Shown piece by piece: positions 7,287-55,008 of a stretch of 64,000 nt of DNA (position 1 is its first letter; every line of letters starts with the position of its first letter). The stretch is from Lytechinus variegatus (lineage: Eukaryota; Echinodermata; Echinoidea; Temnopleuroida; Toxopneustidae). The notes under the pieces are model-generated. The model did no database searches and was not told the origin of the DNA. It saw nothing but the letters and a program-made list of their open reading frames with translations. The stretch lies in assembly GCF_018143015.1 (NCBI RefSeq), contig NC_054740.1, positions 10,283,140-10,347,139 on the forward strand, given 5' to 3'. The translations under genes and the position numbers were made by a program.

Positions 7287-7509
7287 CACTCTAAAAAAGG
7301 GTTACCCAATATTGGGTAAAATGGGAACATGCATGTTTGTTGGGTAAAAACATACCAAATACTTTCGCAATGTTTCGCAATGTTGCGTTGAAATTTACCC
7401 TATATACAAACATGCATTTCGCCCAATATTGAGGAAAAAATACCCAGCAAACATGCATGTTCCCTTTTTACCCAATATTGGGTAATTTTTTACGCTCTGT
7501 TTTAGAGTG
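7287..7509. mobile_element. Palindromic MITE, CACTCTAAAA termini, TA duplication
   Basis: The element opens CACTCTAAAA and closes TTTTAGAGTG, with TA on both sides (7285-7286 and 7510-7511). The arms continue inward with TTACCCAATATTGGGTAA on each side and a GGGAACATGCATGTTTG / CAAACATGCATGTTCCC pair. The 223-bp unit is a long imperfect hairpin. The TA duplication fits a Tc1/mariner-type non-autonomous element. Confidence 0.8.
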
Positions 7510-7511
7510 TA

Positions 7512-8718
7512 GTTCCACCTCCTCATGATGTGCACCTTTCTACCCTCAAACCAGCCTACGCCCTTGTGTATATACAAACTTGACCGACCTATTTCCAAGA
7601 ATCTTCTAATACTTTCATGACTTTGGTTTAGTCAAAATGAATACTCAGGATTGTTAACGATGCTCTATTTAAAAAAGAAAACAAAGTTTCTGCGACATAT
7701 ATTTTTTCTAGTTTCTAGGTTGTCATATGAAACTCCGAAATGGTATGTAATAATCATAATACAGGCCCATCTACAGTTCGTATACTTTCACAGCCTTGCC
7801 ATGGGTTGCATTATGGGACTTTCTACACATGTAAACAGTCTGTTGTCGTCATGGTCGTTGGCAACCCATATCTCGCAATGCAATTTTGATCATTTCATAA
7901 GGTATAAATTTTTCCTCACTTTGTTGGGATTTTTTTTTTCATTTCAAAACAGATTAGATAGTAATGTATGTTTCTAGGTCGGATTCTACAAGTTTATCTT
8001 TAAAATGGCCTTCGCGACCAACGGGCAGTAACCATGCATGAAAATAAATTGTGAAATGACTTATACAATAATTGTGTCGATGAGAGTTTTCGTACCGCGA
8101 TGCAGAATGAATTCAAGAAAATGAAAATGTATTGTCAAATTGCCCTTCATGACAAAGAGCAATCAAGATGTCTTGTGTAGCTATTATAAAAACAGCAGTT
8201 TCGTCCCGGACTCTGGAGAAACGAAATTTTGCAATGTCTTGTCAGCAAACTAACTGCTGTTCCGGTTCATCAATTTCGACACAGACTTCTTGTTTGCTCT
8301 TTGTCATAATATAAAGGAAAAGTCTCAAATAAGAAGTGTTCCATTTATTAATTTGAAAATTATTCTGCGTCACGGTGCGAAAACTACCGATTGAGAATTG
8401 TTAGAACATCATTACGTCAATTTTGTCCCTTTTCCGCAAAAGAAGAGTGTATATTCTTCATCCTCCATTAATAATCTCTCTTATCTTGCCCAAAACATTT
8501 TTCTTGAACTTGGAATAACGAATGAAATATATGAAGAGTTTGTGTAATTAGATTACGAAGATTCGTCAATTCTTTGTGTGAGGTGATTTATTTTTGTCAC
8601 CTTTTCTCTGAAACTTCGCAGGTATACGCTTGCCTGGCTGTGGCGAGTGTGGCGAATGTCATCTTCGATTATTACCCTTAATATCATGCCTACTAAAAAC
8701 CCTCGAAACGTTAAGTTA
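7512..8718. other. Unassigned DNA
   Basis: Short open frames exist (the longest is 108 codons at 7651-7977) but show no motif or splice-supported structure. Confidence 0.5.
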
Positions 8719-39400: not shown

Positions 39401-41760
39401 CTAGAAAATAAACTTGTCCCATTTTCTGAAATGATTTGTTAATAGACCTCTCTGTTCAGCTAGTTTTCTTTCTTCAAGTCTATCTTCTTGTATTTTTTCC
39501 TTGATATGGTTAAGGGTCGGTGGATCTTTTGTGTTTCTACTATTTTTTAAAATCATATACTTTATGAGGATTATTATGTGATTTAATAATTGAGCCTCTC
39601 CTTTAGTTGACCCTTCCACGCCTACGTGTACACCTTTTTTATCTATATTTGTAATGATAGGGAGTTGAAGCATGTTCCCACATTCTATCCATATAGTTTT
39701 TATTTTATCACATGAAAAGAATATATGATCATATGTTTCTTCTTCTTTACTGCAGAATGAACATAAATCATCTGTTGTCATTTTAAATAAATATAAATAT
39801 TTTTTTGTGTATAGTATATTGTGTAATATTTTAAATTGAAATTCTCTGAGTCTGCTGTTCAGAGTCGATTTTCGTGGTCTTAGAAAAATATCAGATATAT
39901 CCTTGTTTGTTAAATTATATTTTTCCTCAAGTTTTTTAAATGCTTGGGGTATATCCGATTTCATACTTACAAGAATATCATATATTCTTTTTGATGTGAT
40001 GTCTTGCAAGTCAAAAGTCCTGCCTTTTAATTGAAAATCCAAAATTAACTCACTATCTATAGAACTTTGACCCCTTTTTTCAGCGAGTCCTTCCAAAAGT
40101 ATGGAATGTTATTAAAAATTTCGAGTATCTTTTCTATTTCAAAACGATCCAAACCCATTTTTTGAAAGGTCGAAATAGACTTAATCTTCCCATCTTTATC
40201 TACAATATGATGGAGTTTATAAATTTTCTTTAAAAACAGCTTTTCATTATAATATGTTTGTCCTTTCAAACGGATGAACCTATTATTGAAAATGATCTCA
40301 TTTCTTTTATTCTTCTCTTCTTTAAGTAAAAACAATTTCTTATTGAACCATACATCTAACATTTCTGTATAAAATTCTGGCAGTTCAAATCCTATCAAAT
40401 TCATTGTGAGGTTACTAAAAAAAATTAGCAATCCTCCCATATCGTGTGCTAAGTATCTGAAATATTGTTTCCATTTCATTTTTGGCTCTCCCATTATAAG
40501 TCTTTTAATCCACATAATTCTTTGTGTCTTAATGAATAACTGAAAATTTGTCATTTTTAGACCAGCATGACCATAATCTAAATAAACAATGTCTCTTTGA
40601 ATTTTATCTTTACCACCCCATAAAAATCCAAAGATCAGTGTATTAAGATCCTCTATTACCCATGTCGGGACAATGGTAAGAGAAGAAATGTATATCAATT
40701 TAGATAGTACAAATGTTTTAATTAACTGAATTTTGCCCATTAATGTCAAATCCCTTTGCTTCCACCACATCAAAATTTTCTTTATTCTACTAAGTATTTC
40801 TTTGTAATTTATTCTTACTTGACTTTCTCTATCTAATGAAAAATATATACCTAAGATCCTAACCATCTGCTCCACTTTACCAAAAGGTAAAATTTGATCT
40901 ATTTGTTCATGGTGTCCCAGTAACATAATAAAGGTTTTATCTTTATTCATCCTCAAACCTGACGTTTCGGCAAAACATTCGAACAGCATATCTAACTTTT
41001 CAATGGACCGAGTATCTTTTACAAAAATTGTCATATCATCTGCGTATAAAATTTGCTTAACTTCTGTATTTCCAAACTTGATTCCGTGAATTTCTGGATC
41101 AAGTCTTATTCTGTTAGCCAAAATTTCAATACATAAAATAAAGAGATAGGGGGATAACGGATCTCCTTGTCTTACCCCTCTCCCTATATCAAAGTAACCT
41201 GTTGAAATACTGCCATTGAAAACACAACTTTCAGCTTTTTTATACAAAGTACTTGTCCATTTACAAAATGAGGGTCCAAAACCAAACGTTTGCAAGACTT
41301 TAAACAAAAAACAATGTGAAACCGAATCAAATGCCTTTTCAAAATCAATGGCCAATAGATATGCCGATATATCATTTTTTACTGAATGAAAAATCATGTC
41401 ATCTATAAGTCTTATAGCTTCCCCAATATTCCTTCCTTTTAAATATCCTACTTGGTCGACATTGATTATTTCATGCAACACCTCCTTTATTCTTATTGAT
41501 AGTACCTTCGCCAAAATTTTGTAGTCTACATTTAACAGTGAGATGGGCCGATAATTTTTAATATGTAATGGATCCTTTCCTTCTTTATGAATTAAGGTAA
41601 TAGTTGCTTGTCTTTGTGATGGCGAAAGTTCTCCTCTCATAAAAGCATTATTTAAAGCATCAACTAAAACATCCCCAATTAGCGGCCAAAACACTAAATA
41701 AAATTCTACGCTAAGCCCGTCATTACCCGGTGATTTATTTAACTTCATCCCTTTTAAAGC
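39401..41760 (-). CDS. LINE ORF2 3' half: reverse transcriptase and C-terminal region
   Basis: The product copies LINE RNA into DNA at a nicked target site. Visible RT blocks in order are KSPGNDGLSVEFY, TLIHKEGKDPLHIKNYRPIS, the block AIDFEKAFDSVSH, RGVRQGDPLSPYLFILCIE and the active-site ILYADDMTIF. The C-terminal part includes RPRKSTLNSRLREFQFK and a zinc-knuckle-like CSFCSKEEETYDHIFFSC. The frame is complete through 41760-40057 apart from the missing upstream half. One frameshift near 40060-40095 moves the C-terminal part into a second frame (40096-39401). L1/Tx1-like is the best clade call from the motif set; it is not autonomous because the ORF is split. Confidence 0.9.
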
Positions 41761-41761
41761 A
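41760..41761. other. Target-site duplication CA, left copy
   Basis: CA at 41760-41761 matches CA at 52774-52775. The LINE coding sequence shows that one CA pair was present originally, so a 2-bp duplication flanks the insert. Confidence 0.8.
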
Positions 41762-42360
41762 CACCCACAAAAAAAAGTGAGTCACCTTGACTCACTTTGG
41801 CGAGTCACCAGTTTGTCCGTATAGCGAAACACTTTTACGAATATGTGAGTCACCATGACTCATTAAAGATGAGTCTGATCATAGAAGACTCATTTTTAAT
41901 GCATCATAGTGACTCATCTTTGCCTTGCAGACTCATTTGTAATGAGTCATGGTGACTCACATAATCTAAAGACTCACTTCAAATGAGTCACCTGACTCAT
42001 TTAAAGTGAGTCATTAAGACGCAGACTCATTTTTAATGAGTCGTGGTGACTCATATAATCGCAAGACTCACTTTAAATGAGTCACATTGACTCGTTTGAA
42101 GTGAGTCAGTAAGACTCAGACTCGTTTGGAATGAGTCACGGTGACTCATGTGATCCTTCTAGTGTGTCGTTATACGGACAAACCAGTGACTCATCAATGA
42201 TGAGTCAGGGTGACTCACTTTTTGCCTAGGTGAGTCACATGACTCAGATGGTTTTACTTAAATGAGTCATTACTTCTGTTCGTAGATCAAGCCTCTTGAC
42301 TCACTTCATGTATGAAGAAGTGAGTCAAGGCGACTTAACTGAAAATGAGTCAAATACATA
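41762..42360. repeat. Left subterminal TGAGTCA/TGACTCA array
   Basis: About 30 GAGTCA or TGACTC words occur in roughly 580 bp, many as perfect TGAGTCA, often in facing pairs such as GTGAGTCACCATGACTCATT. Inside is an inverted pair: CCAGTTTGTCCGTATAGCG near 41809 faces TACGGACAAACCAGTG near 42175. TGAGTCA is the AP-1 (TRE) consensus. Confidence 0.85.
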
Positions 42361-44064
42361 TGTGATAATTACACCAAAAGAAAAGGGTGTAAAATGATGC
42401 CAAATAAAATAAATGGTCTGTTGTCATCATAGGGGCTTTTCCAAAAATGATTAATAACATTTTCCAAGTAAACATGATCATCAGCAAAATTGAATGGATC
42501 AGGAAGTCTCATTGCATGCTTTAGATGTGCCGATTATGATGGACCTACAACCAACAGATCAATAGCCTAATGCTAACTTAACAGACACATCACAATCAGT
42601 TAAAGCAAACGAACTAGAATGTATAAATGCATTGTACATGCCATCTGATTTATTTCCTCTCAACAATAAATCTCCAGAGTCACCATCAATATTACCAAAA
42701 CAAAAGTGACCATTATGCATCCGTGATGTAACCACAACAGACAGAAATGTGTTTCATGGGATAAATGTTTAAGAGTTTACTTGAAAAATAATTATGGTTG
42801 CTGTGCATTTCTTTCTATAATAAAATCTATTCTCAAGCATAGAATCCAGTCACCAAACATGTAAATAAGTGCACTGCTACCTCTCATCAAATAAAAAATA
42901 AAACTATCAAGAGAGAGAGTCATAGATTTTATAACTGATTGGCAACATGGTTTAACCGACTAAACAAAGATAAAGCTGTCACAAAACGTCAATTTTTCAA
43001 ACTTAAGCATACGTACAAACACAATTTAAATTTAAGAATCCCCATGCATGACACGGGAATTCCCCAAATGTCAATTTTTGCTGTAGGAAAACCCACAAAA
43101 ATATTTTACTACTAATAGTACAAGACAATTTCAAAATGTGCAATTTGGATTTTCAATTAATTTTTAAAGCACTTCGCAGAATCCCCCATTCTTAATACCA
43201 TTTCTCTCACTGTGAAGCCCTGGTATTTTCCGCAAAATCTGCCTCCTATAGCAGCTGTATCTTCAAGCAGATACTGACCTTTTCTATTTAAATATATTTG
43301 TGCAATTTTTTTTTTAAAGGCAATGATAATTGTGGTGATTGGGCTATTAAGCAATACCTTTGACATGCTTGGAAATGTGCAGATTGGCTTAAAACTAATG
43401 GCAGTGCTTTGTCAAATTTATAAAATTAGTTTCAAATCAGTTGCATGTGCTTACCATCTCAATAAATGTAAACATTGAGAATTGTTTCCATCATGTACTG
43501 ATGTTGGAAGCCATAATCTTGAAAAGTGCCTTTGTATAATTCTTGGAATTAAATACTAAGTTGCTTGAAACTTACAAACTAACTAAAATTCCATAGAGAA
43601 CCTTTAAAATGTTGTAATTCTTCAAATTTGTGGTGTTAAACTTATTTACATGTACAGTAACAAAATGTGTACAAAAATAAAAAAGTAGAATATTAATAGC
43701 TTAGTCTTCAATTCCCCCCCCAAAAAAAAAATTGTTGACCATCTGATCTGTAAAAATTTTGGGTCCAAATATCTTTTCTTTTTTGTGTGTGCAAAATCCT
43801 ATTTTATCTGTGACAAAAATTTCATTAAGCATTTATACGTAATTCTTGGGATATGAAAAGATTTCCAATTCAAGGGCCACTGAAATTGTACTGAAGCAAA
43901 GCGAAATAATGCACATACTTGATGTCTAAATTCACGGTCAACCTGTCGTATCTATTTCAATCTATTTTGCACATAAAAGACAGATACAACACCTAAGGTG
44001 ATTGCACGTAGAGAAAGTGTGATCAGCTGTGTTGCAGTAGCATCACCCAAGTAATTAATTTCTA
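42361..44064. other. Element interior, unassigned
   Basis: AT-rich sequence between the left array and the decayed gene. One 69-codon minus-strand frame at 43157-43366 has no recognisable motif. Confidence 0.5.
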
Positions 44065-44926
44065 TTAAACTGAAGAACTACTGGCATCAGCATTTCGGAC
44101 AGCATTTAAGTCATACAGGCTTCTTACGACCTTGGATGAGGGTTGAGATGTGGAATCTATGTTCATCAGAATCTTCTGAATGAATGTGAGGGTGTTACCC
44201 ATCTTGGGGGTGTATGATCAGTTGAATACATAATGGGCCGACATAAGCAGAGAGACTGCTGACATGAGGTAGGTGGTTTTCTCGCAGATGACTTCATTCT
44301 CTGCTGTAATATAGGATGATTGCAGAATTTCCGTGAATTTTTCATGATCACTGCTCAGAGTCAGACCTGCACTGTCGGGCTTACTTTTGTAGATGATTTT
44401 GGCGATTGGTCCGTTTTTTATCCTAAAAAAGGGAAACATAAGTGAGAAATGCTGATTAGTTTATTTCTGGTAATGTACACAAGGCAAATTGGTTGATCCT
44501 AGTGAAAATGATAATTTCAAGGTTATGCTAATACATATACTGCTAACTGTACTGTAGTCCAAGATGTACTAGTATGATATTAAATGAAACACCATAGTAT
44601 TTACTTTGATACTTTACAAATTGTAGCCTAAAGAACCGCAAGACTTACAAAATTGTAACTGTAATAAAGAATTTCTTAGCCATGGTTGAGTAAGTGTTCA
44701 CTATGAATTATCATCCAAGCTCTATCAAATTACATGGATGGAAATGAATAATAAATTGGACTCAGAGTTGAGAAATGTACTACTTTCTTGGAAACACCAA
44801 AACATCAAGTTGAACAGTTTGTATAGCCATCAAATCATTTATATACAAGTGGAACGCCTCTGGCAGTCTCGCCTGCATTACTCAGTTCAATATAGCAGCA
44901 GTGCTGACTTTGATGGTCAAAGTTCA

Positions 44927-44956
44927 TTAAAGGACAAGTCCACCCCAACAAAAACA
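44927..44956 (+). mobile_element. Fragment of the AAAGGACAAGTCCACC MITE
   Basis: TTAAAGGACAAGTCCACCCC continues ACAAAAAC, matching the left tip of the MITE at 33874. The following bases differ, so only the tip is present. A related stretch near 27170-27250 shares CCATTGAAAG...AGTTATGG words with 44985-45060. Confidence 0.6.
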
Positions 44957-46097
44957 CTGACATGGCAACACACCTGGCTCATGACATACTCCATTGAAAG
45001 TGCTTTTGTTTTTTGGAAGCCCCCCAGTTATGGCCGCCACAAGTTACAGTGAGGTGAAGTCGAATTCACCTATACTTTTCTTAAGCCACTTCAAAAATTT
45101 CTAAGTGCCTTTTAAATCTGAAGTACTATTATTGCAACTTTCAATTAGAATAATATTAGCAATGAATTAATATTTTATTTATTTTTTTTTTTTTTGGGGG
45201 GGGGTGAAAATTAAGATATAGGACCTACTCTTCACTTTAAACCCCTATGAATTAAACCCTGGTGTGATATTGGTTTATAGGCTTCAGGAGGATGTTCTCA
45301 ATTTATGAATCAACTCTGGAGATAATTTGAGATTCAATAAATCAATTATCACGAAAATTATACTGATGTGTAATCTTCTTTACATTGATGCTAAACAAAA
45401 GTTAGCAATCAAAATACTTAATCAAATGGGCAAAATCTAATCCCTTATTCTCATAAGTAGAATTCTATGGTAGGCAATGTTCTTTTCTTAATCTTTCGAA
45501 GGTTAGGATCTCACTGTGATAGTGAGTAATACATCATTTCAAAACTTATTAGAATTTCCTGTGTTAAAAGAGAGATTAAATCCAATATCTATTTCTTCTG
45601 ACTTTTTAAGAGTTTTGTGGTGCCAGGTCTCATATGGCCTGTCAGTTGAGCTATCTAAATGGACATGCCTGCGACAGCTTCACTCACTCACTCAAAATTC
45701 TGCTGATATTTGTATAAACCTTAAATGAATTTTAAGCATCAAACTTACCTGGCTATGCTGACAAAGCAATGCCTTCTCTCCAAAAATAGTAGGAATCAAC
45801 AGAAGTGCTCCACATGATTTGATCACTGCAAAGAAAAAAAAAATGAAGACTAAACTCAAGCAATGTAAATCGAACTCCAGAATATCAGTATTTTTGTGGT
45901 TGTCCATTCAGAAATATTAAAAATATACAGTATACAATATACATTTTGACCAACTGGCCTGGGTCATCCTTCTTTAACCATTTGAATTGCACATCAGGTA
46001 TAAATAGAAGAGTACACTTTGGAGCCATGTAATTATTGTCTTTCTCTCTCTTGAAATTAAAATGGGGCATATGGATTTGGGGCTGGTAAAACTCGGC

Positions 46098-46122
46098 GGG
46101 GGGGGGGGGGGGGGGGGGGGGG
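46098..46122 (+). repeat. Poly-G run (25 G)
   Basis: An uninterrupted run of 25 G in the intron between pseudogene exons 2 and 3. Such runs are length-unstable and error-prone in assembly. Confidence 0.9.
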
Positions 46123-47665
46123 CAAGTACAGTAACTCTTTAACCATTTTCAAAGTTTTCCTCCCAAGAATAAAATTATTGCAAACCCACTCCTTATCAAA
46201 CATCTCAATAACATACTTTTCCTGGTGTCTTCATTTTCTGCTGCTGCAGCCAAGATCAGGTTTTTGAGCTCCAAACCTTGCTTGGGAGTCTTGCATATCT
46301 CTAGTAATGGATCAGCATATTCAAATGTCCTGCTTCCAACTTCTGCTTAGTTGGGTCCTCTGACAGTCTCTCAAACTCTTTCAACATCAAATGAAAAGAA
46401 TAAAGAGGGAATTTAAACAGGGCAGTCTTATGTTTCTCTGCGTGAAAAAAAAAGAAAAAGAATAGGTGTGTAAAAAATGGCTCAATCAAGAATAATTTTG
46501 AAGACTATGTGCAAATCTCTACACTCTTGATAAAATGACCCAACTGACTCCAGTCTTTCTTTGTCTCCACGAGTTGGAATCACTTTCATTCTATATATAC
46601 AATAATCAATGTATTGAATTCATATGGAAATTTATTGGTGAACAATTACATACAGTTCTTGAAATGGGCCTATCACTTAACCCATTCACAAAGATAAGTT
46701 TTTGCATGAGATGCTCAGTGAAATTGTCCCTTACTTGTCAGCAAGAACAAAAATTCTATTAATTAAGAACGAAGAGTAAATATTTTGCTCTTGTAAATTT
46801 TAGTACTTTGCAAATTTTGATCTCCTTTAACTATCATAATTTTAAGCCTGTACACGCTACTTACTGCATTGAGTGTGAAATGGTAGGACCTTTAGATTCT
46901 TCTCGATCAACAGACATGATATGATTGAGATCAGATAAAGATTAAAATTTCAAACTTTCTAAATATTATGTTTTCACACAATTTATTGATTATTTCAAAG
47001 ATGGATACTAATAAACTAGGTTAAAATACAGAATGTGATTGCATGATCCTAGAAATGTGAACATACCCATTTCTATAAAACTTATAGCTCCAATTCTAGT
47101 TAACCCTAACTAGGCCGGTTTTTTTTTGGCTGTTCTGTGGCCGGGAGCGGGGAGGGGGGGGGGGGCGGGGTTGATTCAACCCCCCGGCCTGTTTAGGGTT
47201 AAGCATGGACTTGCTTATTGCAAGAATAGACCCTTGTTACACGTAAATCTAATGATAGATTCTTGAAGTTTCTTGATCTGTATTAACGCTGATTTGAACT
47301 TACCTCATCTTCATGGAAAAGGTAAGGGTACATATCCTTCAAGTAGGATTCAGTCCAGTTGCTGTTGATGATACCCTTGCGCTTATGGGCATAAGTTAGT
47401 AGATTGTCTATCATCAAGCTGTCCTGTCTTGTTTTTCTGGATTCATTCTGAAGCATCTTGATGTGAGCATTGATCGTTTCTTCATCCTCACTTTCTGGGG
47501 ATGCAGGAAGGTACTTTCTTTATGCCATACATGTGTTTGCCTGCAGCTTTGTCTGGTTTGGGTGTAGTCCCCTTTCTTTGCTTCCATTTGTCCTAATGGA
47601 TTATCACGTTCATGACATTTCCTGCAATTCCTGAATCTGTTGCGTAGTGACTTCTTCCAGTAGCC

Positions 47666-48680
47666 CTGTAAAAAAATAATAATAAAATTATAAAAAACAA
47701 ATAAAATGTGCAAAAAAGAAAAAAAATGAATTGGAAATATTCTTAATGTTATTTTGATGGGATAAATGTGACATATGCTTCAGATAGTGACTGCATTTCC
47801 AAGTTAATAAAAACAAACACCACATCCATTCAAGATGGGGGCTCACATCTCAACATTATCTAATAAAAATATTCATCTTAATTATTGTTGGGAAAGGGGC
47901 ACTTATCAAATTAAAAACACCTCAGTAGACCAGGAATAGGTCCTACAGTACAAATCTACATTTTTCTGTGAGAAGGAAATGCATGTAGTCTAGACTCACC
48001 CAAGGGTTCATTACATGCCTGCCTGTGGGGAATCTAGGACTATATGGAATGCCAATGCTGTACACAGCACACAATTTAAAAAATCATTAAAATATCACTT
48101 TTGTGACCATAATACTAATTTCTGTACAGTTGCAATTCATTTTTCATTAGTAGCTTGGGGTAATTTTCGTATTCACCAGAGCACTTGAAAACTTAAATTT
48201 TGGGCATATTTTTGTGTACGCCCTCTATTAGTGGAAAAATAAAGGCAAGACAATTGTAGTTTTTCAATCTCTATTTTTAATTAAGAAAAATTAATTTAAA
48301 GAATCAAATTTAATTAAGAGACAAGTTACATGTATGTGATAAATAGCTGTAATGGAACCTAACATTGTCAAAAAATTAAACATTAGTCCCAAAGAAAAGG
48401 AGAAAATAGGCCAAACATTGCCAACCTTATTTCACCACACAGGGGGCAGTAACACTAACAGAGAACAAGGTTATATCATAACCTTGTTCATAGAATGAGT
48501 GGTCTAGATTTGATCTACCTGACAAAAAAAACATAGGGATCGATATGTGAGAGTCATTTTGAACTCAGATTATATCGATAGGCAAGTGACAAATAATAGT
48601 AAGTGCCAGACCTATCATCCAATAAGAGCAAGAATTGAAAAATACAGGAACTTGTTCTTCTCAGTAGAGCATGATCGGTT
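47666..48680. other. Element interior upstream of the pseudogene, unassigned
   Basis: The minus-strand branch would contain upstream exons of the decayed gene, but I cannot place any with confidence. Confidence 0.4.
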
Positions 48681-49268
48681 CATCACGGACGGACATTTGA
48701 TAGATTTTGAAAGTTTTGAAGGCTTGTAACAAATTAGGAATAAGATGAACAAGGTTCCTTTGTGTTTTATAGTGAAGGGTAGGACAAAGTATGCTGAATG
48801 ATGAAAAAAGTTTGTTGCCATGGTTACCTACAAACATAGGTATCCACTAAATGTGCCATATCACGGACGGACATGATAGAAATGTGGTTTTTAGAATTTT
48901 TGTACATTTTTATTGTTTCTATCTAAACAGCTTTACATGGACCAATAATTGTTAATGCAACTAACACTCGGGTATGTTAGCTTCTATGTTCAGCATATTG
49001 AATTCTTAACCAATATCAAACTTTTGAGAGAATTGCAAATATTTTCCATCACGGACGGACATCACGGACGGACACTATCAAAATACAATGGAAGAACTCT
49101 GTAAGAAGTTCTTAATACTTTTTTTGGTAAACAAATGCTATTGTATTGATGATTTGTACATATTTAAATAATATTAAACAGTATTAGTGGCACAATCAAG
49201 TTGCTACAACTTCAATCAAGTTGCTGCAACTTGATTTAAGATGAAGCAACTTGATTTCTATGCTAGAC

Positions 49269-49757
49269 CCCGGGGGGCCACTTCCATTCACGAGTGGATA
49301 CCATGCGCGACCATGGGGTCTCGAAAAGCACCCTAATCACGTAATTTCCATATTCTGAAAATGCACCCCTTAACAAGTATTGGCGTGTGAAACCCTACCC
49401 TTAACAAGTATTGGAAACAAAACGATACTCTTGGCAAATATTCCCTGAAATTAACCCCTAAACAAATACAGGAATGTTTTATTGTTCCGGGTCCTTCGGT
49501 CGTCGGCTTTACAGTAGTTTGGTTTAGTACGATCCCACCTTCTGCACCTCATCATCCCCGCAAATTCGACCCTACACTGTAAACACGTAATTTCCTAGTG
49601 AAATACATGTAGATACCCTGTTTTCAATATTTTTGTGTTTTTGACACCCTTATCACGTTACGTACGTAACGTGCCCTATCGTTAAAAAGACATCCTTTTT
49701 ACGTGTTTTTTGGTCGTGCATGGTATCCACTCGTCAATGTAAGTGGCCCCCCCTGGG
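49269..49757. mobile_element. 489-bp MITE with 8-bp target duplication
   Basis: TGCTAGAC flanks it on both sides (49261-49268 and 49758-49765). The ends are CCCGGGGGGCCACTTCC and GGCCCCCCCTGGG. Inverted arms include ACGAGTGGATACCATGCGCG and, facing it, CGTGCATGGTATCCACTCGT. The interior has AACAAGTATTGG words. An 8-bp duplication fits hAT or a similar group. I recall this repeat as widely scattered in deuterostome invertebrate genomes. Confidence 0.9.
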
Positions 49758-50344
49758 TGCTAGACGCACAGTATAATCTAGACATACGATTGCTCTAAAC
49801 ACAGTTCTTGTCAAAATCGAATGTAAAGAATATTGTCTTTTTAAATTGTAGAATACTAGTAGGTTCAAAATCCACAGCTAGTTGATTAATGATCATGTTG
49901 ATTCAAGTATTTTTTTTCCAAAAAGATGTTTTTTTAAGGTCCAAAAACTAAATTGAAAAGATCAATAGGTTGCTGATCCTTATGCTTGTTTGTTGGATCA
50001 ACACTTGTCAGGGGCTCTCTTTAAATCCATCTTTTGCACATACAAAGCGGAGACACCCCATAACATAAACAGCCCTCATGTATTTAGGCCCTGACCGAAT
50101 CCAAAAATGAACTTGATATTCCAATCCAAAGCTTATTAAAACTTCTAAACACTGCAGTGCAAGCTTTATGCATTTTCACAGTTTACCAGATAGCAATTTG
50201 CTTAAAATTAGCTCCAAAATGGACTTCGAAAAAAGGTATTCATGTAATTTTCACAAACCTCAAGACTGTGATGTCATGTTCTCTTAGAAGCATTGTGAAG
50301 CCATAGGTTTGTACATGGAAAAATTGATTTTTCTGCTTATCAGA

Positions 50345-50545
50345 TTATGCATTGCATTCTACTTCTTCTCCATCACTTTCTGCAAGCTTGAATTGGTAAA
50401 ATCTACAGCTTTGGACTTGTTCTTGCCATACTTTGTTTCCCGCTTTTTTGGCATATACATGTACATGTAGCTTTTCAACTCTATCTGCATTCCAATAATG
50501 TTTAAAAAAAAATTCTGACAACAATATAGCCCCAATAACGGCCAA
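50345..50545 (-). other. Possible degraded exon, uncertain
   Basis: Two overlapping minus-strand frames read protein-like: MPKKRETKYGKNKSKAVDFT (with a nuclear-localisation-like PKKR) and ADRVEKLHVHVYAKKAGNKV. An acceptor-like AATGCAG lies just upstream. I cannot tell which frame, if any, belonged to the decayed gene. Confidence 0.2.
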
Positions 50546-52439
50546 ACAAAGATATCACAAAAAATTGTGAAGAGTTAATTGTAGGTTTATTCCATTTGAG
50601 TTCTGAATAATTCTCAGAGCCATTTTTCACTGCAATTAGAAGCTAAAATCAAATTCATAATCTACTCAGCAAAGTTTCTCATTTGCATATATGAATCTTT
50701 CCACAAGTATTTCACTCGTCCGTCCATGATGAAATTAATGTCCATCCGTGATCATTTTTGATTGATTTATTATATGCATAAAATGTATGGATTTTAGCTA
50801 CATGTTCAAATAAAATGATGTACAGTGTCCAGTGAAATACTTCTACACACTTTTATTTCTGTTTATATTCTGATAAAGAATAAAAAGCTGAATCCATAGA
50901 CATTATCCTAATAAAAATGATCACGGACGGACATTAATTTCATCACGGACGGACGGAAATGTTAACATCTACAAGGAAAGTTTACTTCCCATATTTTTTT
51001 CCTGCTAATATGTTTGATGATAGATAAATGTTCAGAGTGCAAGACCATTAAAAAAAAATTGGAGTAACTTTGAAAACAATAAAACTAGAGTGAAATGAAT
51101 TTGAGTGAATTAACTTTGTCCGTCCGTGATGAAATTAATGTCCGTCCGTGATCATTTTTGATTGAGTTTATGATATGGATAAAATGTATGGATTTCAGCT
51201 ATGTTCAAATAAAATGATGTACAGTGTTTAGAGAGATACCTCTAAACCTTTTTATTTTTTATTTCTATTCTGATAAAGAATAAAAAAAACTTTTCATCTT
51301 TTTTTCCATCACGGACGGAAATTTCAAAATGGAAATGTTAACACCTACCAAAAAAAATTACTTCCCAATATTTTTTTTCTACTATATTATGTCTGATAAT
51401 AGAGTAATGTTCAGAGTGCAAGAACATCCAAACCAAATTAGAGTAACTTTAAAAACAATAAAACTAGAGTGAATTTAATTTGAGTAGAAATGTCCGTCCG
51501 TGATGAGAGGTAGCAGCACCCCCATGAATAAAATGGACTATTCCGGTACTTTCGGAATCATCAATCTTGATGAAACTTTGTTTTTTGAAACCTGAGATAT
51601 CAAAGATTATTTTAAAAGCAAATTTGATAAAAGTACCTTAAAAAAAAAAATTTCACCTTAATGTGAACCCTTAACCGATCATGCTCAGTACCGGTACCAT
51701 CATCAATCATATGGAACCACCTGATTTACATTGAATAAACTCGCCATCGACAAACTCATTCAAGAATGCCATCGAAAAGACCTTCTAATCATCCCTTCGC
51801 CCTCCCTCAAGCTCACCCGATCTCAGGCTCATCCGATGCGTTCATGCCCATCAGGGCCCTGCATCGTACACATCCAGATCCAGATTATAGGCCTAACTGT
51901 TATGTGGTAATCTGTTTCGTAGGGTCAGGTGTCCGGACATTTTATATTTTTGAAGCCTTCTTTTTTGTCTTTTGATTAGCTTACCCTAAAAATATGAATT
52001 CAATAGTTGTAATCATCTTCTATTTTGTAATTCTCTATAATATTTCCTACATTTTGTACTAAAAATTGATGAAACTTCGCCTGTAAATTTCTTTGACTTG
52101 CTAAAGTCCGGACACACAACCTGTCCGAACACACAACAACACATATCTAGGCCTACACTCAATTAAACAGACGCGCAGCGGAGCTACACTACAGCCCTAC
52201 AAGCATGACAAGTACAGCCATATAGCACACACACATACACGCATCCGTCTGGTGCACGAAATCCCGCACGTAATCCTCTCAAAGTTCCACAAATCATCAC
52301 CTAAATTGAGAATCAATTATTCTTGTCCACCAAATTTCCTCTCATTCTCTTCAGCAAATTAATTTCTCAGCGGCCTACAGGTGAAATGAACAAAATTATT
52401 CTCAAAACTGCAGGATTAAAACGATTTTACTCACAGTAT

Positions 52440-52505
52440 TCTCTTGATCCAATTCAGCAATGGCGACGTCAAACGGGAATGTTCGCGCGATGGTTGACGT
52501 CATAG
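52440..52505 (-). promoter_or_regulatory. CRE-like sites near the right end of the 11-kb element
   Basis: TTGACGTCATAG holds a perfect CRE (TGACGTCA at about 52494), and GCGACGTCAAAC about 25 bp away holds a CRE half-site. The patch is CpG-rich next to AT-rich DNA (GCGCGATGG, GCATGCGCGCAC) and lies upstream of the minus-strand decayed gene. This is where a promoter for it would be expected; the role is inference. Confidence 0.35.
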
Positions 52506-52534
52506 CGTGCAAGTAGCGCATGCGCGCACGGCTT

Positions 52535-52773
52535 TATTCTTAATTGACTCATTTTTTTTTTGTAAATGAGTCAATCGCCGATCTTGACTCATTTTTTACA
52601 ACTATGTGAGTCAGTCGGAGCATTCTGCAAGTGAGTCATTTCGTTATTGACTCACTTGTTAATTACAGATGAGTCAACTAAGACTCATTTAATTTTGTTA
52701 GTGAGTCAAGTTTCGCCTGACTCACAAATATTATACATAAATGAGTCACATGACTCACTTTTATCTGTGGGTG
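52535..52773. repeat. Right subterminal TGAGTCA/TGACTCA array
   Basis: About 12 GAGTCA or TGACTC words in 230 bp, ending ATGAGTCACATGACTCACTT then TTATCTGTGGGTG. It mirrors the left array with the opposite terminal orientation. Confidence 0.85.
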
Positions 52774-54190
52774 CAGCTAAACATTCACCTTCCGTAATTT
52801 TCCCTTCACATGATTTCATCGATTCTTCTGATAATTTTGTTACATCGGAGAAAAAGTCATCAAGGATTTTATCATCTCTCTTTGCATATAACATGCTATA
52901 AAAATTCCTTATTTCATTTTTTATTTCCTTTTGATCAAAAGTTAATCTATCTCCTATTGATAATTTACGTATATTTGTTTTCTTTTTGTTGGATTCCATT
53001 AACTGAGTGAAGTACCTGGTATCCCTTTCCCCGCTTTCATAAAAAGAAGCTCTCGATCTGATTTTAAGACCTTCGCTCACATAATCATAACATGCCTTTA
53101 ATTCTGTCTTTTTATTCTCTAATAAATCGATTGATTGTTTATTCATATTTGTAGTTAATCTCGTTTGAATACCATCAATTTCTTTTTCTAAATCTTTGAT
53201 TTTCTCTCTTCGTTTCTTAGCCTTTTCCTTTGAATATTTCCGAGAAAAATTGCCGATTTTCATTTTCAAGAAATCCCAAAAAATTATCTTATCTTTGATT
53301 TCTTTTTTAAAAGTTTCTTTCAAATTGATAATTTCGTCTTTCATTTGTCGAGTAAAATCACCGTCTGTACACAGACTATTGTTAAATTTCCAATAAGTGC
53401 CTTTAGATGTTTGAATTGACTGAGAGGGTTTATTAAAGAGTTGAAATACAACCGCCGAGTGATCTGGTGCTATAGACGGTATTATATCACATGTTAAAAC
53501 AAATTCTCTAAAACTTTCTGTAATAAACCAATAATCTAACCTGCTTTGCATAAAGGGGTTAATTTGTCTAAAAGTATACTGTCTCTTAACGCCATTAATT
53601 TCCCTCCAAATATCAACTAAATTTAAATCACATACAAAATTATCAAAGTTCTTCTGAAAAGAAGACTGAAACTGTCTTGTATTATTTCCCATGTAGTCTA
53701 AGTCAATATTCCGTACTAAATTAAAATCTCCTCCCATAATGAGAGGAACACCTCGATCATGTTTTTCTTTTAAAACTGTATTTAAATTGTGTAAGACTGT
53801 GTTTCTCTCCATGTTATGACCTTGAACAGGGAAGTACACATTAACTAAAGCTAACTTTATATCTTGTAATATACATTCCATAATTATAAACCTTCCGTTT
53901 TCGTCAGTCTTTGTGTCCAGAATCTGAATACCTAACTTGGAGTTGATTAGTACACTAACCCCCCGACTATGACATGTACCATGACTATAGTATATGTTTC
54001 CATTCCACTCAGAACCCCATGCTTCTTCGATTTCCCTTGTACTAAAAGTTTCTTGCAAGAAAACTACGTCTGCTTTCTTATCCTTCAACCAAGTAAAAAT
54101 TCTTTCTCTTTTCAACTTATCTCTTAAACCTTTCACATTCAAAGAAAGAAAACTGCAATTAACAGATAAACGATCCAAATCCATAAACAA
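52774..54190 (-). CDS. LINE ORF2 5' half: apurinic-like endonuclease
   Basis: The product is the nicking endonuclease of an L1-type LINE. Visible motifs in order are FLSLNVKGLRDKLKRERIFT, the block ADVVFLQETFSTREIEEAWG, GVPLIMGGDFNLVRNIDLDY, the block QYTFRQINPFMQSRLDYWF and IIPSIAPDHSAVVFQ. After the domain is a coiled-coil-like basic stretch (RREKIKDLEKEIDG). The frame begins MFMDLDRLSVNCSFLSLNV near the usual start of ORF2 and is open for about 470 codons before it runs into the insert at 52773. It pairs with the RT half at 39401-41760. I did not find ORF1. Confidence 0.92.
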
Positions 54191-55008
54191 GAAAAAGAAT
54201 GACAGATATTATATACCTCAAAATATTCCAGAGATGCTGAGACGAAGCTTGTTTCGAAAAGGGCCCTTCGAGTAGGGTTCCGAAAGATTATTTACGACAA
54301 GAGAGATCTAAAAAAACGCACCGATGTGGAGACTGATAGCTTGACACGCTCCACCCCCCCCCCCCCTCCCATTCATTTCTTAAAGTCTTCTCTCCCCTAA
54401 ATAAAAAAAATAAAAAAAACCTCATTAACTAAGGCACCTGTCTGTCTTTGTAGAATTAAAACAAAGCATTAAATAAAGAGAAGAGTTATTTTTACCTATC
54501 TTTTGTATCTATTCTCGTTCATCTATTTACATATTTACAATTGTACTATCTAGCTTTATTCAAATGCCGAAACTACGCTCATAAAACAAAACAAATTCAA
54601 AACTATCAGTCAAGAAAATTCATTGAGAAAACATCACAAGGCATGTCCGCCGACCTCTTTTATAACCTGACTTCAGTTAAGAAACAATGCCCTTCGAATA
54701 AACAAACCTTTCCTTTCTTGTCTTTTATGAAACCATCAAAATCAAATCAAATGCCTAGAGCTATCTTTAAATAACCAGGGCAAATTATTTCCTATGTCGG
54801 TCTTATATGACTATTGTTACAATAACACTGGTTAAAACACTATCAGAACATATCCCTTGAAACTTTTAATTGCCTTAAAAAGAAAATAGAATCGAACTAG
54901 AATTTTACCATACCAAAATCCCAGCACTGGCTTTTAATGCCAAGGGTAGCAATTAAAGTATCCATGGAGCTTAAGCGGTCAAAGCCATTAAGTGTCAACC
55001 AGAGTGGG
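54191..55008. other. LINE upstream region or unrelated flank
   Basis: No ORF1-like protein is visible on the minus strand. A C run lies near 54352-54366. The LINE may be 5'-truncated or its leader may be unrecognised. Confidence 0.4.

Follow-up and report, generated by a model that had tools for sequence, protein, structure and literature searches.

Are transposon ends packed with AP-1 sites read by the host, or does the likeness belong to a word read by a protein of the transposon's own? The question is raised by an element of the sea urchin Lytechinus variegatus, at positions 41762 to 52773 of a 64,000-nucleotide stretch of contig NC_054740.1 (assembly GCF_018143015.1, positions 10,283,140 to 10,347,139; hereafter the window). 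The element starts with CACCCACA (41762), ends with TGTGGGTG (52773), has CA on either side and carries many copies of TGAGTCA near both termini. This heptamer is the AP-1 site, or TPA-responsive element (TRE), and the first-pass annotation of the window had proposed that host AP-1 could occupy both ends. We consider it likely that the element is a young, apparently nonautonomous, CACTA-like cut-and-paste transposon, inserted in a long interspersed nuclear element (LINE), and that a dedicated reader recognizes AARTGAGTC(A) at its ends.

Termini, flanks and age of the family

The termini and the CA duplication described by the first-pass annotation are present, and the insertion site bears the duplication out. 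The minus-strand LINE frames at the break encode a reverse transcriptase (40057-41781) and an endonuclease (52706-54208), and when the flanks are joined with a single CA, one open frame runs over the junction, ECLAALKGMKLNKSPGNDG. The restored frame gives independent support for a 2-bp duplication.

The element belongs to a recently active family of about 27 dispersed copies with dense subterminal repeats. The genome searched comprises 869.6 Mb in 33 contigs, and the match counts from the copy searches are lower bounds. The first 301 bases match at least 27 places over at least 280 query bases, 26 of them at 96 to 100% identity and one at 73%; eight places, the window copy included, tie for the best score, with 100% identity. 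For the last 301 bases there are at least 28 matches, of which 22 lie at 93 to 100% over at least 298 of the 301 bases and six are partial or diverged. A pattern for the ends, CACCCACAN{3,14}TGAGTCA, has 59 matches in the genome against 18 for its reversed control, and 46 of the 59 are family ends by their letters.

Seventeen copies (16 fetched plus the window copy) were compared from end to end. Both termini are present in every one, as is CACCCACA, so that the ends first seen in the window recur in all the copies compared. Matching 2-bp flanks (CA, TA, TT, TG, AT, AA or AG) surround 16 of the 17. Five further copies have both ends readable; the flanks match in C11_24.58, C8_42.98, C1_49.87 (whose right end is TGTGGATG) and C1_46.63, and differ in C8_23.0. 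Overall, flanks match in 20 of the 22 copies whose two ends could be read, a count that omits C1_1.36, the left end of which is truncated, and single-end copies. Since C1_46.63 and C1_47.1 are segmental duplicates with the same flank, these 20 matches represent 19 independent sites.

Some copies have a more complicated history. In C1_0.217, the exception among the 17, the left end adjoins inverted left-end sequence. A composite at G000:C1:210531-225565 has two family right ends facing outwards and, at 217188, a left end that meets inverted left-end sequence; its outer flanks (CA and AT) are mismatched. Three copies (G000:C1:46525222, 46630598 and 47137074) have the left flank GCCCACGAA in common, so this region was probably duplicated after insertion.

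Movement of the family is recent, since the ten youngest copies are separated by pairwise substitution distances of only 0.13 to 0.72%; the seven older copies lie 1.1 to 3.7% from these ten. Three copies (C7, C14 and C16) carry a common internal insertion (852 to 861 aligned bases, 99.8 to 100% identical) that is absent from the other 14, and they occupy different genomic sites; they therefore moved as units after gaining it. The four shortest of the 17 copies measure 7,943 to 7,967 bp and the other 13 measure 8.4 to 12.4 kb. The window copy is one mobile element, as the first-pass annotation held, but 3,020 bp of it is a nested insertion, and its 11 kb is not the family length.

The repeated word and its putative reader

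The window element holds 35 perfect copies of TGAGTCA, 24 in the left 640 bp, 11 in the right 250 bp and none between; chance would give 0.08 in the left stretch and 0.03 in the right. Outside the element, the remaining 52,988 bases of the window hold three. With any last base, TGAGTC occurs 32 times on the left and 12 times on the right, close to the roughly 30 and 12 words of the first-pass annotation, which had also noted that many were perfect. The shorter GAGTCA, on either strand, occurs 42 times (26 left, 11 right, 5 between). That annotation had made conservation of the words between copies one of its tests, and they are kept: each of the 17 copies has 19 to 25 TGAGTCA on the left, 8 to 11 on the right and 0 or 1 between.

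The triple TGAGTCA..TGACTCA..TGAGTCA has 338 matches genome-wide against two for the reversed control; among the matches listed, all are on contig C1 and all are in family copies. An outer-pair pattern, AAAAGTGAGTCAN{1,8}TGACTCA, has 74 matches against none for its control, and all 74 are end arrays of the family or of its two relatives. One of these diverged relatives, C8_12.37 (with a duplicate, C8_11.34), ends in CACTCACC and has kept the outer pair AAAAGTGAGTCATGTGACTCA; the second, C17_6.79, has kept an array of the same words.

The repeat unit is an asymmetric 10-bp word, AARTGAGTC(A). Among 53 exact TGAGTCA sites from four end sequences, AA stands at -3,-2 in 28 and its mirror TT in 4; A is found at -2 in 35 and T at +2 in 12. 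A purine precedes the core in 49 sites and a pyrimidine follows it in 34. Sites with one mismatch are altered at the last base in 20 cases (16 of them TGAGTCT) and at the first in 6 (binomial p 0.009), and AA is upstream in 13 of the 20 last-base-changed sites. The reference copy, C9_20.7, has nine TGAGTC sites whose last base is not A (eight TGAGTCT and one TGAGTCG). Seven of the eight TGAGTCT sites keep their letters in all of the older copies aligned there (for one of them, one copy has a gap); the eighth reads TGAGTCA in a single copy of the seven older ones, and at the TGAGTCG site three of the seven have TGAGTCA.

In the left array the sites are also regularly paired. There, 24 of 31 neighboring sites alternate in orientation, with centers about 10 and about 14 bp apart, giving nine +- pairs at 9 to 11 bp and seven -+ pairs at 13 to 15 bp, numbers that none of 5000 random placements attained in either case. 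The C17 relative has six and eight such pairs, again with none of 5000 for either.

With C9_20.7 as the reference, 17 of 3772 core cells are changed in the two arrays together, against 106 of 9700 spacer cells; the left array contributes 13 of 2575 and 96 of 7175. Counted by column, 13 of 238 are variable in the cores and 60 of 612 in the spacers (Fisher on columns, core versus spacer, p 0.04); for the body of the element the figure is 730 of 7110.

Could host AP-1, that is, Fos/Jun bZIP dimers, be the selected reader, the ends having evolved for opening, transcription or mobilization where AP-1 is active? The 35 perfect heptamers at the two ends, the greater conservation of left-array cores over spacers and the purine that precedes 49 of the 53 cores would all suit it, since AP-1 prefers a purine at that position. 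There is also a human precedent in which a transposase-derived protein, itself not TRE binding, is tethered to AP-1 (PMC3459987). The extended site is one-sided, however, both in the rarity of T at +2 relative to A at -2 and in the limited share of sites, 34 of 53, with a pyrimidine after the core; the TGAGTC sites with another last base are mostly retained in older copies (seven of nine in all those aligned there); and centers 9 to 10 bp apart are probably too close for two bZIP dimers at once. We regard AP-1 as an improbable reader, and the asymmetric unit, the near-fixed TGAGTCT, which is one half-site short of the palindromic TGA(G/C)TCA core of AP-1 response elements, and the alternating geometry of the left array point to a dedicated reader. 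The proposal that a host bZIP consensus is the repeat unit is only partly borne out: the heptamer is a perfect TRE to which AP-1 could bind, but the unit is longer and asymmetric, and eight TGAGTCT sites are nearly unchanged between old and young copies. Judging from the sequence, the AP-1 match is real but probably secondary in role.

We give equally little credence to the related idea that both ends are AP-1 platforms at which binding would open or synapse the ends or drive an end promoter. Mobility would then follow AP-1 activity in stress or development, and each copy would have carried about 35 TRE words into the genome.

Under the dedicated-reader explanation, a DNA-binding transposon protein, provided in trans by some element that these searches did not find, would read AARTGAGTC(A) at both ends, perhaps dimerized on pairs of tail-to-tail sites roughly 10 bp apart. 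By analogy with TNPA of maize Spm, it would bring the two ends together for the transposase, which would cut at CACCC, the copies being mobilized in trans. The overlap with the AP-1/TRE heptamer would be a property of the reader's own word, and host AP-1 may sit on many sites as a by-product. AARTGAGTC thereby supplies, for a CACTA-like element in an animal, an exactly defined reader motif that can be tested. Moreover, given its youth and the fact that the 74 outer-pair matches all lie in it or its relatives, the family offers a natural test of a transposon's binding word as an AP-1 enhancer or sponge.

Several points weigh against this explanation. The right array shows no clear difference between core and spacer (4 of 1197 versus 10 of 2525 changed cells), so core conservation is carried by the left array alone. 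The right array also has two +- and no -+ pairs, numbers reached in 318 and 5000 of 5000 random placements, and lacks the 14-bp spacing. Because the array sites arose partly by tandem duplication and the relatives are related, the p-values are too small. Flanks are mismatched in 2 of the 22 copies. Finally, Pfam scans of some of the frames and a genome-wide search for PF02992, the tnp2-type transposase of autonomous CACTA members, revealed no family transposase or DNA-binding protein; none of the at least six genomic PF02992 hits lies inside a copy, which, no autonomous copy having been found, bears on these copies alone; and the outer-pair pattern led genome-wide to no autonomous element with the same array.

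The missing core-spacer difference on the right, together with a 94-bp tandem unit repeated 2.4 times in the left array, would be expected if the arrays had grown by tandem-repeat drift with no reader at all. The same word stands at both ends and in two diverged relatives, though, and left-array cores are conserved above their spacers; we regard drift as already disfavored and very improbable.

Search for a transposase and the superfamily

The Pfam scans covered part of the frames: seven peptides from the stop-to-stop frames of one 7.96-kb copy and seven from six more copies, in which frames of at least 90 residues had been listed before scanning. The first-pass annotation had found no transposase, and within this coverage there is still none belonging to the family. 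The genomic PF02992 hits have open frames of 610 to 846 residues, and no match to the outer-pair pattern lies near them. The sole transposase domain in any scanned copy is a DDE_3 in C5_22.3 (L051, element position about 7989-8519), presumably a Tc1/mariner-type fragment. We rejected it as the family transposase: it sits in a 2.3-kb stretch private to C5_22.3 among the 17 copies and is therefore a nested foreign element. The 26-kb copy C8_23.0, at first sight an autonomous candidate, is in the 6 kb examined a standard element to position 7400 and unmatched thereafter. C10_22.59 has a 585-residue frame within its own 4.5-kb insertion. Extra segments common to older copies (one of about 610 bp, in C4_1.79 and C1_47.1, and one of about 480 bp, near position 1230) contain no 90-residue frame in the copies listed.

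In anatomy the family appears CACTA-like. Its ends read CACCC, not the CACTA or CACT of the superfamily, the end of the C8 relative reads CACT, and short subterminal repeats are arrayed in both orientations; duplications of 2 bp in 20 of 22 copies do not follow the plant 3-bp rule and do follow that of animal TRC elements. About 27 copies bear out the first-pass reading as to the ends, the 2-bp duplication and the subterminal repeats, while membership of the superfamily is unproven because no family transposase was found. An alternative is another cut-and-paste superfamily with 2-bp duplications, such as the ISL2EU-like and Mirage-like ones, which are known for them. The duplication length, the CACCC end and the lack of a PF02992 match in any copy would fit, but the CAC...GTG ends, the long two-orientation arrays of short subterminal repeats and the relative with a CACT end do not, and the animal CACTA-related TRC elements also have 2-bp duplications (PMC1636069). 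We judge this alternative unlikely.

Cargo, and comparison with known systems

The features of the locus are collected in Table 1. The nested insertion is matched in none of the 16 copies with which it was compared, and it may be a second element with CACGGACGGACA as its own subterminal word.

Table 1. Features of the element and of the LINE that it interrupts (window coordinates)
Feature	Position	Strand	Remarks
CA target-site duplication, left copy	41760..41761		rejoined flanks restore LINE frame
Left terminus, 23 bp (CACCCACA, A-run and first site)	41762..41784	+	21/23 identical to inverted right terminus
Left subterminal array, 24 TGAGTCA and 8 TGAGTC with other last base	41778..42352	+	orientation mostly alternating, ~10/14-bp spacing
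Remnants of broken multi-exon passenger gene	44218..47660	-	exon pieces near 44218-44440, 46149-46504 and 47283-47660
Nested 3,020-bp insertion	48667..51686		GAGCATGATCGGTT as inverted ends, flanked by AGTA at either side, with repeats of its own motif CACGGACGGACA
Right subterminal array, 11 TGAGTCA and 1 TGAGTCT	52544..52757	+	
Right terminus, inverted reading CACCCACAGATAAAAGTGAGTCA	52751..52773	-	
CA target-site duplication, right copy	52774..52775		
Target LINE, reverse transcriptase part (RVT_1), split by insertion	40057..41761	-	profile scan of 40060-41730
Target LINE, endonuclease part (Exo_endo_phos)	52774..54208	-	profile scan of 52850-54205

The body of the element carries pieces of a passenger gene. 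Its C-terminal piece has 27 genome matches, all inside family copies. The second exon has 87 at a loose cutoff (E 10), 69 in family copies and 18 elsewhere, the latter including a relative on C2 at 62% and, with equal scores at 33% identity, seven further places. In family copies, each of the 25 longest second-exon rows (the query having been joined from two copies) contains at least one stop, so that none of them shows the exon intact. The seven equal-score matches (C3:27115154, C4:328530, C9:8732075, C9:16321445, C13:4138039, C15:23634899 and C19:8618524) have an open frame of 164 residues and are probably, from their sequence, another repeat family with the same gene. Scans of the passenger pieces gave nothing significant in Pfam or PDB. 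A "SAMD3-like" label for the gene would be tentative: Pfam and PDB gave no significant match, and the titles listed for SAMD3 with transposon contained nothing relevant. A candidate first exon at the right end was discarded because 4 of the 17 copies have its frame broken, C15_3.8 has it interrupted and in C4_1.79 it could not be located. A search of the same end for promoters of bacterial type gave none, which is uninformative here. The C8 relative carries a different exon (L066:340-560), about 250 bp inside its end, with 22 matches: two are the relative and its duplicate, and the other 20 lie at 32 to 55% identity, several of them clustered (for example, 42 to 55% on C1, C4 and C17). It is possibly a captured host exon.

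Among the titles and abstract openings listed, which for one search were 20 of 1,110, none describes this family or a CACTA element with subterminal repeats of AP-1 type. Plant CACTA elements are described as having short, CAC-starting terminal inverted repeats and two-orientation subterminal motifs read by the element-encoded TNPA; in maize Spm, TNPA binds the subterminal repeats, and TNPA and TNPD are both needed (PMC2613891). The present family resembles maize En/Spm in its CAC-starting inverted ends and its reiterated subterminal motifs in both orientations, but it differs in the 2-bp rather than 3-bp duplication, the CACCC end and the word AARTGAGTCA, and its copies yielded no gene resembling tnpA or tnpD. 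SmTRC1 of Schistosoma is an animal CACTA relative with 2-bp duplications in 7 of 14 copies (PMC1636069), and the likeness lies in that duplication length; TRC ends, however, start with CCC, a TRC transposase is present, and the word "subterminal" is missing from the main text of that paper. The human CSB-PGBD3/MER85 system likewise ties a DNA transposon to AP-1 sites, but as described there, a protein is tethered to AP-1 elsewhere in the genome (PMC3459987), whereas in the present family the TRE-like words form the end repeats of the element itself. Relative to the AP-1/TRE heptamer itself, the unit of this family is longer, one-sided and often TGAGTCT, and in the left array it is set in pairs of regular geometry.

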